Shown here: positions 13,664 through 22,576 of the stretch, in pieces
Layout: each line of letters starts with the position of its first letter
Position numbering within the stretch: position 1 is the stretch's first letter
NCBI GenBank assembly: GCA_031270985.1
Contig: JAISWR010000056.1
Location: 1-47,231 of the forward strand
Source: Bacteroidales bacterium
GTDB lineage: Bacteria; Bacteroidota; Bacteroidia; Bacteroidales; UBA4181
Direction: 5' to 3'
DNA length: 47,231 nucleotides
The notes under the pieces: model-generated
What the model saw: only the letters and a program-made list of their open reading frames with translations
Told to the model about the DNA's origin: nothing
Databases searched by the model: none
Made by a program: the position numbers and the translations under genes

Positions 13664-13694
13664 TTTGAAATCTTGATAAATTTTTATATCTTTA
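13664..13694 (+). promoter_or_regulatory. Promoter of the giant sensor kinase
   Basis: TTTG at 13664-13667, a 19-nt spacer, then TATCTTTA at 13687-13694, one mismatch from TAnnTTTG. It predicts a start near 13701 and a leader of about 70 nt that contains a 9-bp inverted repeat. Confidence 0.6.
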
Positions 13695-13769: not shown

Positions 13770-16700
13770 ATGGAGGAGCGTATCAAGCAATTGGAAAAAG
13801 AAAATGAGGCGCTAAAAAGACAATTGTCTCAACTGGAATCGGATAAAGGTACGGCATCCTCCGAAGTGTTGCCGGAGATGGACAAAATCTCGCTGACGGA
13901 CATTATTCCTTGTGAGGAACTGCAACAGTTACAAGATAGTTTTTCTGTCGTCAACGGGGTGACGTCAATCATTGTGGACACTTATGGCCATTCCGTCACA
14001 CGGACGAGCAATTGCAACAATGTATGCCGGCATATACTGTCTTCGCAACAGGAATGTTATGCAGGGAAACGATTGCTGGAAGAGGAATACACATTGGAAC
14101 ATCCGTGCAAACTGATAGAAGCGAAAGCGCCCATTTACATCGGTAAACGACATGTGGCCGACTGGAAAATCGGCATGTGCGGACTGGGAGGCGCCATTTC
14201 CCCTTTTATCTGGGAAGCCTGCAAAGACCACGAAGAATTTATGACTCTTCTGGAGAAACTCCACGAAAAAACAGAACAGCATTTCGAAAATATACGCAGC
14301 ATGTTGGAACTGATGGCAAACGAACTGTCCGGCATCGGTTACAACAAAATGAAAATCGCCGCCGACCTCATCAAGGAACAGCAGAACGAACTGAAATTGC
14401 TGGAAAGCCGGAATACCATACGCGGCATTTTCGACCATTCAAAAGACGGCATCATGCTTGCCGATGCCGACGGCGCCGTAAAAGAATGGAGCAACGGCTT
14501 CACATTCCTTAACGGCATCCCGAAAGAAGAAGCGACAGGAAAAAAGGTCTGGGATGTGGTGAAAACCGTCCTCGTTAGCGACGACATCACCGAAGACACG
14601 GAACAGTTCAGGAAAGATATTCTTCAGGTGACGGAACACCAACAACCCGTCACCGTCAATCATGTCAATCGACATGCAAAAACGGGAGAATTACGTTACG
14701 TTCAGGCAACATTTTTCCCGGTAACCGGATTGGGAAACCAAAAACACATGGTTGGCGCCATCGGACGGGACATCACCGAGGAAGTGAAAGCGCAAGAACT
14801 TGTGCGCATCAACGAGCAAAAACTGAAAAACAACAACGCCGTGCTGGAAAGCATCATGGCGACCATACCCGCACCGCTCTATGTCAAAAACAGCGAAGAA
14901 CGATACATCAGATGTAATGATGCTTTTCTTGACACGTTCGGCTATATGCGCGAACAGGTGATGGGCAAAAAGGCGGAAGAAATATTGGTAGAAAACAAGC
15001 ACACGGACAATGAGAATGACACCGCTGAACAGATAGAACCGAAAGCAGAACGGATACAATCGGAAGTGACGCTGAAAACCGCGGAAGGATTCCGCGAATT
15101 TATATCTTTCCGCAACGCAGTTTCCAACAAAGACAAGGTTGTCGGAATCCTGTTGGACGTCAGCGACCTGAAAGACGCCAAACAGAGTCTGCTGGTGGAA
15201 AAGGAACGATTGCAGGCTTTGGGGGACAACATCCCCGACGGATGCCTCTATCGTTTTTCATCCAACGCCACCGACGAAACCATGAAAATGGAATATCTGA
15301 GCGCATCGTTCGAAAACCTGACCAACCTCTCTATTCCCGACGCATTGGCAGACATCAGCAACCTTTTTATGCTGGTACACGCTGACGATCTTCCCATATT
15401 GATGCACAAAATACAGGAATGTATCATCACGATGGACGATTTCAGCATTGAAGTGCGTCTCAACGAAAATCCCGTCCGCTGGATTCAAATCCGTTCGCAT
15501 CCCCATTACGAAGGCAAAAGAATCGTGTGGGACGGCATTTTTATGGAAACCACACGCCAAAAATACGCCGAACAGGAACTGTTGGCGGAAAAAGAACGGT
15601 TGCAGACTTTGGGAGACAATATCCCCAACGGATGCCTTTACCGGTTCAGCCTTGATTCCGCCACAGGAGAAATGAACATGGAATATGTCAGCAAATCGTT
15701 CGAGGTTCTTCTGGGCATACCCACCCGCGCCATGGGAAGCATCAACCAATTTTTCGATCTGGTTCATCCCGATGATTTCGACAATGTGATGGTAAAATTG
15801 CAGGAATGCGTTTCCACCATGAGCGACTATAACGTAGAGTTCAGGCTCAACGTACCGTCCGTCCGCTGGATACAGATGATTTCGCATCCCCATCGGGAAC
15901 ACGAAGGAAAAGTGGTGTGGGACGGGATCATCCTCGACATTACCGACCGGAAAGAAACCGAGAAAACACTGCAGATGGAAAAGGAACGCATCGAAGCGCT
16001 GGGCAACAACATTCCCGACGGATGCCTCTATCAGCTCAGTCTCGATCCTGCCACAGAGCAGATGAAAATGGAATATCTCAGCGAGTCGTTCGTGCGGATT
16101 TCGGGCATACCCGCCGCCGAAGCAGTGGGAGACATCAACCAGCTCTTCGGGCTGATTCATCCCGACGATTTTTCCGGACTGATGGTAAAGATACAGGAAT
16201 GCCTCTCCACTATGGGCAACTTCAACGTGGAATTCATGCTCAACGTATCGCCCACCCGCTGGGTGCAGATGATCTCGCATCCCCATCGGGAACACAACGG
16301 AAAAGTGGTGTGGGACGGAATCATTCTTGACATCACCCGACGGAAAGAAACCGAAAAAATACTGAAAATGGAAAAGGAACGAATAGAAGCCCTGGGCGAT
16401 AACTTCCCCAACGGATGCCTGTTCCGTTTTCAACTGCTCCCCGCACAACTGCTCCCCGACACATGGGTGGAACATCTGCAACTTTCCTATGCCAGCGCAT
16501 CGTGGGAAAAAATCAGCAACGTACCATTGGAGGTTGCCATGCAGAACGCCGCAGCACTGTTCATGAAAATCTTCCCGGAAGACATGACGGCCGTCATGTC
16601 GCAAATGTTCGAGTGCATGTCAAAATACACGGACTTCAGTGTGGAGATGAGATATCATTATGACGAATCCGACATACGGTGGTTTCAGGCATCCGCCCGT

Positions 16701-19700
16701 CCGCATTACGAAGACGGCACGATTGTTATAGACGGACTTCTGCTCGACATCACCGAAAGGAAAAAAGTGGAAAAGGAACTGAACAGTTACCGCGACGAAC
16801 TGGAACGGTTAGTGAAAGAACGCACCGAAGAACTGGAAGCATCCACCGAAGAACTCTATGCCATCAACGAAGAACTGTCCGCCACCAACGAGGAATTTTC
16901 CGTTACCAACGAAGAGTTGCACCACAAAAACGAGCAGATGCAACAACTGATGCAGCAGTTGGAAAACAGCGAGGTGAAGATGCGCAACTTCATCGAACAA
17001 TCCATTGCAGGTATTGTCATCCTCGACAGTCAAGGACGCACCATAGAGTGGAATCCGGCACAGGAAAAACTGACCGGTATCTCACGCGAGGAAGCGATCG
17101 GAAAATATGAATGGGAAACCACGTTCATGGGATGTCCGGATGCGGAAAAAACGGAAGAAGTACGGCAGCAACTGAAACTTCAGTGCGAAAAATATCTGCT
17201 TCAAGATTTCTCCGAAACAGGTCATCCCCCCGTGGAAATGGACGAAGTGATACAAACCCCTTCGGGAGAAGAGCGGTACGTCCACGTATCACTCTTCACT
17301 ATCTCGCTGAACGACGGCAATCTCTACGGAAGAATCTTCCTGGACAACACGGAAAAACACCTTTCCGACAACGAACTGGAACAGTACCGCACCATGCTGG
17401 AAGAAATGGTGGAATACAGGACAAAAGAACTGACTGCCACTCAGGAACGCTTGGTTTCGCTGAGCGACAACCTGTCAAGCGGCACTATCTTCCAAATCCT
17501 CAACAACCGGTTCACTTACATCAGCGCCAACTTTACCCGCATGTTCCGCCTGAACATCGAAGCGGTGGAAGAAGACAACGCATTGTTTTACAACATTATT
17601 GAGGAAGAAGACAGAGCAAAACTCAACATGCTCTATGATGCGAACGTCCAAACCACGACTTGCGACGCCGAATGCAGGTTCAACAACGCCGGAGAAATCA
17701 AATGGGTACACATACAGGCAAGTTGCCGCGTACAGACCGACGGAAGCCGTGCATGGGACGGCTTCATGATCGACACCACCAACCGCAAACTCGCCGAACA
17801 GGAACTGGAAGAAATCAGAAAACGGCAGGGGATACTCATCAAAGTGCTGCAAATCGCACAATCGACGGAACACATGCCCGACGCCATCAACCTTGTACTC
17901 TCCAAAATAGGCGAATACACAGGCATTAGCCGGACGTACATCTTCGAAAAAACACCCGACGGGCGAACCATCAACAATACCTACGAATGGTGCGGCGAAA
18001 ACGTAGCCCCGATCATCCATACCCTGCAAAACATCCCCCTGTCCGACATGCAGCGATGGTTCAACATTTTTGAAAAAGGCCAGTATATTCAGACCTCCGA
18101 CATCACTACCATGCCCGACTTCGAATACAACATACTGAAGGGACAGGGCGTCAAATCCTTTCTGGTACTGCCGCTCGCCATCAACGGCGCAGTGTACGGT
18201 TTTGTAGGACTTGACGACTGCAACCACCACAGGGAATGGGCCAAAAGCGAAGTGGAACTGCTCATCAGCCTTTCACAGATCATCTCCGACACCACCCGGC
18301 GATTCAGGGCCGAAAACTCCATGCTGCTTTCGCAACAAACCATGCGCACCGTGCTGGACAACATCAACGCCAACATCTACGTCGCCGATTTCGACACCTA
18401 TGAAATCCTTTTCGCCAACAAAAAACTGCAGGAAGACGCCGGTCTCTCACAGGCACAGGGCAAACACTGCTGGAAACTGTTCAGCGGACTCGACCACGTG
18501 TGCGAATATTGCCCCAACCCCCATCTGCTGGACGAAAACGGAAAACCCGTCGGACTCTACCGCTGGGAACACTGGAACAGCAAGTACAACCGATGGTACG
18601 AATGTACGGACGCCGCCATCGAATGGGTGGACGGAAAACTGGCACACATGGAATACGCCATGGACATCACCGACCGAAAACTGGCCGAAGAAGCACGCCA
18701 AAAATCGGAAGAACTCTACCGACAACTGACCGTCGCATCGCCCGACGCCATCGTGGTGTGCGACTCGCAGGGCCTCGTGAAATACTGCTCGCCCAGAGCA
18801 ATGGAACTCTTCCTGACCTCCGAAGAGATGCACATGGAGAACCGGCTGAACATCTTCAAATTCATCCACCCGCACGAACAGCAGCGAATCGTAGAACTCT
18901 TCGCCACCATCACAAGCAACGACATCTATTACGTGCCGCAAATCCTCCTCACCCGCGAAGACCAGTCGGAATTTTTCGGCGAAATATCAACGGCCACCGT
19001 CAGGGACGACAAAAGCGACATCTTCACCGTTATCCTCGTGATACGCGACATCACCAAACGCAAAATGGACGAAATGGAACTCATCCGCGCCAAAGAAAAA
19101 GCGGAAGAATCCGACAAACTGAAATCAGCTTTCCTTGCCAACATGTCGCACGAAATACGGACGCCCATCAACGGCATCATCGGCTTCCTCGGCTTCCTGG
19201 ACGACGACAACCTCCCGCCGGCGCGACGGCAGGAATACATCAAAATTGTGAACAACAGCAGCAGCCAGCTGGTGAAGTTGATAGACGACATCATTGATGT
19301 GGCAAAGATCGAAGCCAAACAGATGACCATTCGCCCCATCCCGATGGCGCTCAACGAATTTATGCAGGAATTGCAGATATTCTTTGAAACCTACATACAG
19401 TCTGCCAATAAAGATAAGATTGTTCTTATTCTGGACGACAGTTCGTTTATTGATGACTGCCTGATTTATTGCGACCCCACACGCTTGCGACAGGTCATTT
19501 CCAACTTAATCAGCAATGCCGTCAAATTCACCGAAAAAGGTTATATCCGTTTCGGATACAGGCAACTGTCGTCCTCCATGTTGGAATTTGTGGTGGAAGA
19601 TTCGGGCATCGGTTTGCCCCCCGATCAATTAGAAGTCATTTTCGAGCGTTTCCGTCAAGCGGAACTGAAAAACAGCAGAAAATACGGCGGCACAGGGCTT

Positions 19701-20288
19701 GGACTCGCCATTTCACGCAGCCTGGTGCAACTGATGGGCGGCGATATCCGCGTGGAATCCGTTCAAGGCGAAGGCGCTTCATTCACCTTCACCATACTGT
19801 ACATCCCCGTCAATCCGAAAGACATCTCCTTATTCAAAGATGAGCCGGTGCAAAGTGCGCTGGAAAACTACGACGGAAAGACAGAAATGCAGGGACAAAG
19901 CGACAAAAGCGGCAAGCCGTTCAACAACACTTCCGTATTGATCGTAGAGCCTGAAATCATCAAACGCGCATATTTCAAAAACCTCCTCCTTGCCGCCGGA
20001 GTGGATATTATATTCGCTCAAAACGTCCAGCAGTGGGCGGACGCCATCACCAAACAAAAACATATTAACGTGGTGTTGGCTAATGCGGATGTGCTCAAAG
20101 ATGCGGAGAGCGAAACCATCAAGGGAATCAAATCCGTCAGATCGGGCTTGCCGCTGGTGTTGGCTGTTCCCGAACAAAACGAGTATTATCATAACCTAAT
20201 TAGTGAAACCCTGTGTAACAAAGTGCTGGATTTACCGACAGATTACAATCGACTGTATCAAACACTGAAAGAAGCGATGGCGGAATGA
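13770..20288 (+). CDS. Giant PocR-PAS-GAF hybrid sensor histidine kinase
   Basis: A 2172-residue cytoplasmic-looking kinase with no signal peptide or membrane span. In order: coiled coil (1-30); PocR-like ligand domain (about 40-190) with several Cys; PAS (215-340); PAS (350-470); four tandem near-copy PAS units (474-603, 604-733, 734-864, 865-1003); coiled coil rich in EEL repeats (1005-1065); PAS (1068-1195); PAS (1227-1350); GAF (1355-1510); PAS with Cys1567, Cys1578 and Cys1581 (1524-1640); PAS (1649-1775); HisKA with NMSHEIRTPINGI, His1794; HATPase with N-box (1906-1922), DSGIGLPP and GTGLGLAIS; then a receiver-like domain (2054-2165) in which the phospho-accepting Asp is Asn2105 and the conserved Lys is lost. 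Output must therefore go to a separate partner, not seen here. The stop overlaps the next start. Codon composition seems to shift near 19320. Confidence 0.93.
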   Translation: MEERIKQLEKENEALKRQLSQLESDKGTASSEVLPEMDKISLTDIIPCEELQQLQDSFSVVNGVTSIIVDTYGHSVTRTSNCNNVCRHILSSQQECYAGKRLLEEEYTLEHPCKLIEAKAPIYIGKRHVADWKIGMCGLGGAISPFIWEACKDHEEFMTLLEKLHEKTEQHFENIRSMLELMANELSGIGYNKMKIAADLIKEQQNELKLLESRNTIRGIFDHSKDGIMLADADGAVKEWSNGFTFLNGIPKEEATGKKVWDVVKTVLVSDDITEDTEQFRKDILQVTEHQQPVTVNHVNRHAKTGELRYVQATFFPVTGLGNQKHMVGAIGRDITEEVKAQELVRINEQKLKNNNAVLESIMATIPAPLYVKNSEERYIRCNDAFLDTFGYMREQVMGKKAEEILVENKHTDNENDTAEQIEPKAERIQSEVTLKTAEGFREFISFRNAVSNKDKVVGILLDVSDLKDAKQSLLVEKERLQALGDNIPDGCLYRFSSNATDETMKMEYLSASFENLTNLSIPDALADISNLFMLVHADDLPILMHKIQECIITMDDFSIEVRLNENPVRWIQIRSHPHYEGKRIVWDGIFMETTRQKYAEQELLAEKERLQTLGDNIPNGCLYRFSLDSATGEMNMEYVSKSFEVLLGIPTRAMGSINQFFDLVHPDDFDNVMVKLQECVSTMSDYNVEFRLNVPSVRWIQMISHPHREHEGKVVWDGIILDITDRKETEKTLQMEKERIEALGNNIPDGCLYQLSLDPATEQMKMEYLSESFVRISGIPAAEAVGDINQLFGLIHPDDFSGLMVKIQECLSTMGNFNVEFMLNVSPTRWVQMISHPHREHNGKVVWDGIILDITRRKETEKILKMEKERIEALGDNFPNGCLFRFQLLPAQLLPDTWVEHLQLSYASASWEKISNVPLEVAMQNAAALFMKIFPEDMTAVMSQMFECMSKYTDFSVEMRYHYDESDIRWFQASARPHYEDGTIVIDGLLLDITERKKVEKELNSYRDELERLVKERTEELEASTEELYAINEELSATNEEFSVTNEELHHKNEQMQQLMQQLENSEVKMRNFIEQSIAGIVILDSQGRTIEWNPAQEKLTGISREEAIGKYEWETTFMGCPDAEKTEEVRQQLKLQCEKYLLQDFSETGHPPVEMDEVIQTPSGEERYVHVSLFTISLNDGNLYGRIFLDNTEKHLSDNELEQYRTMLEEMVEYRTKELTATQERLVSLSDNLSSGTIFQILNNRFTYISANFTRMFRLNIEAVEEDNALFYNIIEEEDRAKLNMLYDANVQTTTCDAECRFNNAGEIKWVHIQASCRVQTDGSRAWDGFMIDTTNRKLAEQELEEIRKRQGILIKVLQIAQSTEHMPDAINLVLSKIGEYTGISRTYIFEKTPDGRTINNTYEWCGENVAPIIHTLQNIPLSDMQRWFNIFEKGQYIQTSDITTMPDFEYNILKGQGVKSFLVLPLAINGAVYGFVGLDDCNHHREWAKSEVELLISLSQIISDTTRRFRAENSMLLSQQTMRTVLDNINANIYVADFDTYEILFANKKLQEDAGLSQAQGKHCWKLFSGLDHVCEYCPNPHLLDENGKPVGLYRWEHWNSKYNRWYECTDAAIEWVDGKLAHMEYAMDITDRKLAEEARQKSEELYRQLTVASPDAIVVCDSQGLVKYCSPRAMELFLTSEEMHMENRLNIFKFIHPHEQQRIVELFATITSNDIYYVPQILLTREDQSEFFGEISTATVRDDKSDIFTVILVIRDITKRKMDEMELIRAKEKAEESDKLKSAFLANMSHEIRTPINGIIGFLGFLDDDNLPPARRQEYIKIVNNSSSQLVKLIDDIIDVAKIEAKQMTIRPIPMALNEFMQELQIFFETYIQSANKDKIVLILDDSSFIDDCLIYCDPTRLRQVISNLISNAVKFTEKGYIRFGYRQLSSSMLEFVVEDSGIGLPPDQLEVIFERFRQAELKNSRKYGGTGLGLAISRSLVQLMGGDIRVESVQGEGASFTFTILYIPVNPKDISLFKDEPVQSALENYDGKTEMQGQSDKSGKPFNNTSVLIVEPEIIKRAYFKNLLLAAGVDIIFAQNVQQWADAITKQKHINVVLANADVLKDAESETIKGIKSVRSGLPLVLAVPEQNEYYHNLISETLCNKVLDLPTDYNRLYQTLKEAMAE
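15189..16778 (+). repeat. Four tandem PAS-coding repeats (about 390 bp each)
   Basis: Units begin at 15189, 15579, 15969 and 16362 (spacing 390, 390, 393; the last unit runs to 16778). Each opens with a (V/A/M)EKER(L/I)-x-(A/T)LG(D/N)N(I/F)P(D/N)GCL signature and ends in WDG(I)-x-(L)DIT followed by charged linker. Units 2 and 3 are closest and share ISHPHREH and GKVVWDGIILDIT at DNA as well as protein level; unit 4 has diverged and carries an insertion. Clear internal duplication. Confidence 0.92.
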
Positions 20289-21229
20289 TGAATAAGATAC
20301 ATATCGTTTTATATTGCCTGATATGTCTTGCACCGGCATGTGCATCCATCCGCGAATGCCGGATAGAAACCCTGCAACCGCCGGAAATGCCGCTGAACAC
20401 GCCGATAGAAAAAATCGCCGTATATGCTCCGCCGAAACTTTTTTCAGAAGCAATTGTTTCCAATATTAAAACCGCGGACATCGCATCCGATTCGTTGATA
20501 TATAACATATTGTATTCATTAAAAATGTTCATCGAAGAAGCGCCGGGATTTGAGGAAAGCGTCGTATCCGTATTCATCGCCGATGGGGACATTCCCGACA
20601 AGGCGGATTATGACTGGCTGATAGAACTGAAACAACTCGATATCGAAAACAATATCGGAGCGCAATCAGGAAAACTATTCCTCCATGCGCGGTGTTCCGC
20701 ATTGTGGACGCTGCAAAATCGCGATGCAAGCGTGACGGATACTCGCTCCGACAACGATTCCCAAATATGGCTGGCAATCAGCGAAAACGACGGTAACTAC
20801 ATCATCTCCTACCTGCCCACCATTGCCGATGCATGGTGGGATTTGGGCATCGCTATCGCCCGTTCTTACGCCCGTTACATTACCCCGTACTGGTACACGG
20901 AAGATCGCCAATTTTTCATGCTGAACAAGTTCCCTGACCATTCCAGACGGGCATATGACGCCATGATGAACGGCAACTACCAAAAAGCGTTTGATATATG
21001 GGAGGAAATGTTAATTTTATGTGGAAAAAATGGAAAAACCAGCACAAAAAGCCAGATAACACTGAATATGGCTGTCGCCTGTGAATCGGAACACCGTTTG
21101 GACGAAGCGTTGGTGTGGGCACAACGATCGGTCGGTTATGCCGTGAATTACCTGAACGGAGGATACCCCGAATTTCTAAAATACCGACAAGAACAGGACA
21201 GCCTGCTGCGCCGACAAATCTCTCACTAA
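20285..21229 (+). CDS. DUF6340-like lipoprotein
   Basis: A 314-residue lipoprotein: a signal peptide with Cys at about 19 (CLAPACAS) is followed by a mature domain that resembles DUF6340, a Bacteroidota family without known function (my recognition is moderate). The C-terminal 110 residues (DAMMNGNYQKAFDIWEEM, LNMAVACESEHRLDEALVWAQRSV) look like tetratricopeptide-type helical repeats, so it may bind another protein. Its ATG at 20285 shares ATGA with the kinase stop (a second ATG is at 20288), so translation is probably coupled to the kinase. It precedes the M48 protease by 8 nt. Confidence 0.75.
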   Translation: MMNKIHIVLYCLICLAPACASIRECRIETLQPPEMPLNTPIEKIAVYAPPKLFSEAIVSNIKTADIASDSLIYNILYSLKMFIEEAPGFEESVVSVFIADGDIPDKADYDWLIELKQLDIENNIGAQSGKLFLHARCSALWTLQNRDASVTDTRSDNDSQIWLAISENDGNYIISYLPTIADAWWDLGIAIARSYARYITPYWYTEDRQFFMLNKFPDHSRRAYDAMMNGNYQKAFDIWEEMLILCGKNGKTSTKSQITLNMAVACESEHRLDEALVWAQRSVGYAVNYLNGGYPEFLKYRQEQDSLLRRQISH

Positions 21230-21237
21230 CCGCCGAT

Positions 21238-22488
21238 ATGTCACCACAACTTGTTTTTATCATCATCATTGCCATTTTTGCCGTTGATTTTTTATTGGAG
21301 AGTTATCTGGATTTCCTAAACATGAAATGCCTATCGGAAAAACCGCCTCCGGAACTCGAAGATATTTACGATAGCGGAAAATACGCGCAATCGCAGAGAT
21401 ACGAACGAGCTAACATACGTTTCGGATTGATTACCGGAACGTTTAATCTGATCATCATCCTGCTGATGTTCTTTTTGGACGGCTTTGCAACAATCAACAA
21501 TATGGCGACAGCCATCAGCGAACACCACATTGTACAACCGCTTATTTTTTTCGCCATTCTGGGTTTGTCGCTGGATTTGCTCAATATGCCCTTTTCCATT
21601 TACGATACTTTTGTGATCGAACAGCGCTTCGGGTTTAACACCACTACCCCGAAAATCTATATCGCCGACAAACTGAAAGAATGGCTGCTCACGGGCATCA
21701 TCGGCGGAGGCATCATGGCGGCAATCATTTGGATATACCTGCAAACCACTATCTATTTCTGGCTTTGGGCGTGGGCGTTGATATCCGCTTTTTCCCTGTT
21801 GATGGCAACATTCTATTCGTCGCTCGTAGTGCCGCTGTTCAACAAGCAAAAACCGCTTGGAGACGGAGAACTGAAAGACGCCATCACCCGCCATGCCGTC
21901 GAAGCAGGATTTCACATTGACCGCATCTACACCATTGACGGGTCGAAACGCTCCACCAAAGCAAACGCTTATTTTAGCGGAATAGGGCTGAAAAAACGTA
22001 TCGTGCTCTTTGACACCCTCATTAAAGATCTTGACACCGAAGAAATTGTCGCCGTACTGATGCACGAGATAGGACACTACCGCCAGAAACATATCATTTC
22101 GTCCATGTTGCTTTCCATGTTACAAACAGGCGTCATGCTGTTCATTCTCTCACTGTTTGTCGCCCACCCCGCCTTGTCGCAGGCATTGGGCGTAGCCGAG
22201 CCGAGTTTCCACATCGGATTGATAGCCTTCGGCATCCTGTTCAGCCCCATATCCGTTGCCGTCGGGCTAATGATGAACATCGTGTCGCGCAAGCACGAAT
22301 GTGAAGCCGACGCTTTTGCCGCCCGCTACGGGATGGGCAAAGGACTTATAAAGGCTTTGAAAAAACTGTCCGTCAACAATCTTTCCAACCTTACGCCACA
22401 TCCGCTGTATGTGTTTTTCCATTATTCGCATCCTACACTGCTTACGCGCATCGGAAAACTCACGTTGAAGGCGCTTCAGACAGCGTAA
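21238..22488 (+). CDS. M48 (Ste24/CAAX protease-like) membrane metallopeptidase
   Basis: A 416-residue integral membrane zinc protease of the Ste24 type. Hydrophobic spans are at about 3-20, 62-82, 98-118, 150-172, 178-198, 290-310 and 325-350. The zinc motif is LMHEIGHYRQKH (HExxH), and the third ligand is in HECEADAFA. The SIYDTFVIEQRFGFN block before the third span is family typical. I chose the ATG at 21238, 8 nt after the lipoprotein stop; an in-frame earlier start would lie inside that gene. Bacterial Ste24/HtpX relatives take part in membrane protein quality control; there is no evidence for CAAX processing here. It forms a three-gene set with the kinase and lipoprotein. Confidence 0.9.
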   Translation: MSPQLVFIIIIAIFAVDFLLESYLDFLNMKCLSEKPPPELEDIYDSGKYAQSQRYERANIRFGLITGTFNLIIILLMFFLDGFATINNMATAISEHHIVQPLIFFAILGLSLDLLNMPFSIYDTFVIEQRFGFNTTTPKIYIADKLKEWLLTGIIGGGIMAAIIWIYLQTTIYFWLWAWALISAFSLLMATFYSSLVVPLFNKQKPLGDGELKDAITRHAVEAGFHIDRIYTIDGSKRSTKANAYFSGIGLKKRIVLFDTLIKDLDTEEIVAVLMHEIGHYRQKHIISSMLLSMLQTGVMLFILSLFVAHPALSQALGVAEPSFHIGLIAFGILFSPISVAVGLMMNIVSRKHECEADAFAARYGMGKGLIKALKKLSVNNLSNLTPHPLYVFFHYSHPTLLTRIGKLTLKALQTA

Positions 22489-22545
22489 AAAACTTGTGGG
22501 ATGTAAAAAAGAATGGCGTCGCTAAAAAAGAATAAACCCCATTCC

Positions 22546-22576
22546 TTGCATCATATTAAATCGTTGGTTATTTTTG
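22546..22576 (+). promoter_or_regulatory. Promoter of purE
   Basis: TTG (22546-22548), a 20-nt spacer and TATTTTTG (22569-22576), a full Bacteroidota housekeeping promoter. It places the start near 22583 and supports the purE ATG at 22595. Confidence 0.75.

Follow-up and report, generated by a model that had tools for sequence, protein, structure and literature searches.

A recurring DUF6340 lipoprotein–M48 protease gene pair of Bacteroidota, probably placed by rearrangement behind an orphan sensor kinase in one species

The window, the whole 47,231-nucleotide stretch analysed here, comes from a Bacteroidales MAG of 146 contigs and 85% completeness, which may be of the termite-gut type; no second assembly of the species was found. 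It carries three closely spaced genes on the same strand, flanked by two promoter-like sites:

13664–13694, + strand: promoter-like site of the Bacteroidota type (TTTG-N19-TAnnTTTA) with one mismatch, lying some 75 nt ahead of the start codon of the kinase; weak
13770–20288, + strand: giant soluble sensor histidine kinase, 2172 aa (ORF call and Pfam)
19932–20285, + strand: receiver-like kinase tail without a phosphorylatable Asp (orthologue alignment; PF00072)
20285–21229, + strand: DUF6340 lipoprotein (Pfam, alignment, AlphaFold)
21238–22488, + strand: Ste24-type M48 membrane metalloprotease, 416 aa, HEIGH...E (Pfam)
22545–22576, + strand: promoter-like site before purE with one mismatch (consensus match); weak

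The kinase TGA (20286–20288) overlaps the DUF6340 ATG by 4 nt, with the junction sequence GCGGAATGATGAAT, and the M48 ATG at 21238 lies 8 nt past the lipoprotein stop. An earlier note on this DNA had described this three-gene layout, the overlap and the spacing, and all are seen in the sequence. Its description of the first gene product as a soluble sensor kinase of 2172 residues agrees with the ORF length, the Pfam domains and the lack of a transmembrane segment, and its DUF6340 and Ste24-type M48 identities are borne out by Pfam and, for M48, by the nearest solved structures.

The kinase comprises an N-terminal PocR domain (residues 44–191), several PAS domains, a GAF domain, HisKA (1785–1849) and HATPase_c (1902–2009) in Pfam. 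HisKA retains an intact H-box and is combined with HATPase_c, identifying the protein as a histidine kinase, and no transmembrane segment was detected along its length, the highest 19-residue hydropathy (1.74) falling within the GAF domain. Its start codon is supported because the orthologue in the congener G009 aligns from residue 1. Four tandem PAS units of ~130 aa are encoded at window positions 15143–16425 with a repeat period of 390–393 nt; the copies are 69–81% identical, the closest two reaching 81% over 295 nt. Length differences among the kinase orthologues correspond mostly to whole PAS units of ~130 residues, and therefore the PAS number expands and contracts. At the C-terminus, PF00072 matches in 5/6 kinase orthologues, with a similarity to response regulators that is weak, and the phosphoacceptor position holds Asn in the window kinase and four orthologues (5/6), Asp being retained in G008. 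The tail is therefore probably a pseudo-receiver conserved across the genus. The window kinase thus lacks the C-terminal receiver with phosphoacceptor Asp that defines a hybrid histidine kinase, and a phosphorelay through the tail is unlikely, the Asp having gone from most orthologues.

The lipoprotein matches DUF6340 (PF19867) with E 4.9e-15 and 55.9 bits against a gathering score of 26.4, and this is its sole Pfam match at E <= 0.001. It begins with a lipobox-like segment whose Cys is invariant in 12/12 aligned homologues, the −2 Pro of the window copy being unusual. AlphaFold2 prediction on 12 DUF6340 sequences (mean pLDDT 85) yields an alpha/beta LptE/PelC/CsgG-like domain (about residues 34–201) followed by a TPR domain (about 213–307). 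The first domain aligns with the folds of LptE, PelC, HpaA/NMHA-type, TraT and CsgG-like lipoproteins (Foldseek E about 1e-5; VIA Z about 10–12). Unlike LptE, the protein has no match to the LptE profile PF04390 and adds the TPR domain, and a fold in common with LptE-type proteins does not equal a common function. The possibility that DUF6340 is a missing LptE was rejected, since the window genome has its own true LptE elsewhere, on contig C12. Tandem DUF6340 genes occur at L139, L155 and L169, where M48 is absent, and before M48 at L055, L118 and L128; such tandems suggest heteromers. Among the papers covered by a literature search, none names DUF6340.

The third protein matches both M48 profiles (PF16491, E 6.9e-54, 182.8 bits; PF01435, E 2.2e-35, 122.6 bits), both above cut-off, and contains HEIGH at residue 276, the Glu ligand E354 and several hydrophobic segments. 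Among solved structures it is closest to Ste24p (structure match with E 1e-89) and ZMPSTE24. Together, the domains, the HExxH motif with its Glu ligand and the predicted membrane segments fit a Ste24-type M48 metallopeptidase.

The earlier note had proposed that the three genes form a sensing-to-proteolysis module, and had named the failure of their order to extend beyond this species as the result that would speak against it. A family search returned 12 genomes: the window genome, eight congeners (G002–G009) and three from other genera. PocR genes are present in five of the eight congeners (G002, G006, G007, G008 and G009), each being the orthologue of the window kinase, with 55–66% identity over about 1750–2160 aligned residues and both the N-terminal PocR domain and the C-terminal tail in common. 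In all five, the orthologue stands alone elsewhere in the genome, without DUF6340 or M48 as a neighbour. An order-level sample of 149 genomes has PocR proteins in 25, and in none of these outside the window does a PocR gene lie on one contig with DUF6340 or M48; likewise, no related histidine kinase lies within three genes upstream of M48 at the 98 other M48 loci. The kinase–lipoprotein–protease order is thus absent from the five congeners bearing an orthologue, the 98 M48 loci and, the window apart, the 25 PocR genomes. As a conserved module the trio fails and is rejected, its gene order not being shared by related species. Judged by its distribution, the kinase is an orphan sensor specific to the genus and neighbours the pair in the window species only, and its link to the pair is most likely incidental.

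The link between the lipoprotein and the protease behaves differently and is conserved far beyond the species, so that this part of the proposed coupling stands and the kinase drops out of it. DUF6340 directly precedes M48 in six of the eight congeners (G002, G004, G005, G006, G007 and G008; in G004 the M48 gene runs off the contig end), with a spacing of −4 to +20 nt, and the outer genes on both sides differ between species; every genome of the genus is a fragmented MAG. In G009, whose genome is 93% complete, the M48 locus (L031) lies near CinA without DUF6340; therefore, M48 can exist without a DUF6340 partner. Within the order-level sample, DUF6340 was found in 72 genomes, M48_N in 95 and both in 45. 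The two genes are adjacent in 11 of these 45, the window included, against about 0.007 adjacent pairs expected by chance. In all eleven cases DUF6340 is upstream on the same strand, and the ten besides the window come from nine family codes. The pairing is not obligatory, since the remaining 34/45 genomes keep the genes apart.

When GTDB genomes were scanned with the M48 alignment, 80 loci emerged, and nine distant genes upstream of M48 were confirmed as DUF6340 by Pfam. DUF6340 lies directly upstream in 27 of 98 M48 loci, which include two contigs counted twice, and in 25/96 once these duplicates are removed. In the phylogeny of DUF6340, the seven sequences from the genus, all paired, group in a single starred clade, and pairing is clustered across the tree (11 changes against 21.3 when shuffled, 0/500) without being confined to one origin. 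From this gene order and phylogeny, DUF6340–M48 is an old, recurring Bacteroidota gene pair. Literature searches on DUF6340, on PocR kinases in Bacteroidetes and on bacterial Ste24 in Bacteroidota returned no description of it. The earlier note had cautioned that M48 might be just a neighbour; in these comparisons M48 is recurrently paired with DUF6340, and the bystander is most likely the kinase.

The pair extends into a wider neighbourhood. CinA lies directly downstream in 20/98 M48 loci, an SDR gene often stands before DUF6340 at these loci, and in many relatives M48 is beside CinA without DUF6340. Every species of the genus that has DUF6340 lacks SDR and CinA at the locus, yet all seven of them retain the pair. 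On these comparisons, the pair belongs to an old Bacteroidota neighbourhood, SDR–DUF6340–M48–CinA, of which the pair alone survives in the window genus. In several families, a ~695-aa protein without Pfam match is also repeatedly encoded immediately ahead of DUF6340 or M48, and at the 98 M48 loci it sometimes stands between genes of the neighbourhood:

Loci of the ~695-aa protein: L123, 4692–6782, − strand; L128, 782–2863; L056, L077, L090, L097 and L129

Promoter-like sites were located by consensus match only, at a rate of about 0.3 such sites per kb. Exact consensus matches number four in the window against 1.4 expected, and one-mismatch sites are therefore weak evidence. The consensus scan detected no promoter-like site within the final 700 nt of the kinase gene or at the lipoprotein–M48 junction, and a promoter-like site lies 24–37 nt before DUF6340 in G004, G005 and G008, the first two being close relatives. 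Such an arrangement agrees, though weakly, with the pair having a promoter of its own in relatives and being transcribed by read-through from that of the kinase in the window species. A common transcript of the kinase and the pair is plausible there, and the site before purE suggests that the M48-bearing transcript ends before that gene.

Known systems combine M48 proteases with similar partners. In Sinorhizobium meliloti, the M48-domain metalloprotease JspA and the lipoprotein LppA need each other and feed the ExoR–ExoS–ChvI pathway (PMC10659215), a pairing of protease and lipoprotein like the one found here. However, JspA is itself a LysM lipoprotein, whereas the window protease is a Ste24-type membrane protein; LppA has 148 aa, against about 315 aa with TPR for DUF6340; and the kinase of that system, ExoS, is bound by periplasmic ExoR, whereas the window kinase is a soluble protein without conserved linkage (PMC10659215). 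BepA of Escherichia coli likewise unites M48 protease activity and a TPR domain for recognition, serving the quality control of LptD/BamA in the envelope, but does so within one periplasmic polypeptide (PMC7950410). In the window, the TPR domain belongs to a lipoprotein of its own, and the protease is of the multi-pass membrane type. The window protease resembles Ste24/ZMPSTE24 and HtpX in matching PF16491 plus PF01435 and the Ste24p structures. Yet CAAX processing is not expected in the window bacterium, and a partner lipoprotein is not part of the eukaryotic system as known.

By analogy, the pair most likely constitutes an envelope protein quality-control unit of lipoprotein adaptor and membrane protease. 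The TPR and LptE-like domains of the lipoprotein would capture damaged or mis-assembled envelope proteins, which the predicted membrane M48 protease would then remove. For this adaptor–protease reading we infer interaction, substrates and common expression from the sequences, the predicted fold and the observed linkage. Direct contact between the two proteins is a proposal: DUF6340 would lie on the periplasmic side, whereas active sites of the HtpX/Ste24 type are considered to face the cytoplasm or the membrane.

With a probability of about 0.72, an old DUF6340–M48 pair, acting as envelope adaptor or sensor and protease, has been placed by rearrangement behind an unrelated orphan kinase, with no sign of a dedicated kinase-to-protease route. 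The rearrangement would have put the kinase directly before the pair in the window species. The pair, whose overlap with the kinase gene is directly visible, probably lost its own promoter and would be read through from the kinase; in its new position it is therefore probably co-transcribed with the kinase from the promoter of that gene. Placement behind the kinase may have altered expression of the pair in this species. A bolder version sees in DUF6340–M48 a so far undescribed Bacteroidota system of two components for envelope quality control, an LptE-like/TPR lipoprotein adaptor and a Ste24-type protease, which operon capture has newly wired to the giant cytoplasmic kinase in this species; this version is unlikely.

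Three further explanations bear on the two junctions. The 4-nt stop/start overlap, the 8-nt spacing and the lack of a promoter-like site between kinase and pair would suit a recent regulatory innovation, in which the three genes are a functional module in the window species and ligand sensing by PocR/PAS controls expression or activity of the pair. Nevertheless, this gene order occurs in no other species, the kinase carries no output domain suited to acting on an envelope protein, and it ends in a degenerate receiver tail, leaving such a module distinctly improbable. A chimeric MAG contig, with the kinase–pair adjacency as an assembly artefact, is a very improbable account even for a genome so fragmented and incomplete and lacking a second assembly, given that a natural kinase C-terminus meets a natural lipoprotein N-terminus with a 4-nt overlap, which is rare in a random join, and that GC and GC3 are alike on both sides of the junction.

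The DUF6340–M48 adjacency, for its part, could be inherited synteny of a conserved block with no functional link, as indicated by the position of the pair within the SDR–DUF6340–M48–CinA block in distant families and by the many relatives in which M48 adjoins CinA without DUF6340. In the wider Bacteroidota, part of the pairing may indeed be synteny of the whole block. Against this stands the window genus, in which the seven species with DUF6340 have lost SDR and CinA from the locus yet kept the pair, and we consider synteny without function a serious but doubtful explanation.

Under the preferred reading of an old pair rearranged behind an orphan kinase, the attractive kinase link is set aside as incidental and a concrete, undescribed DUF6340–M48 gene pair remains. 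The recurrence of DUF6340 before a Ste24-type protease provides a first testable hypothesis for the role of DUF6340, a domain present in about half of the sampled genomes of the order (72/149), in the Bacteroidota envelope.
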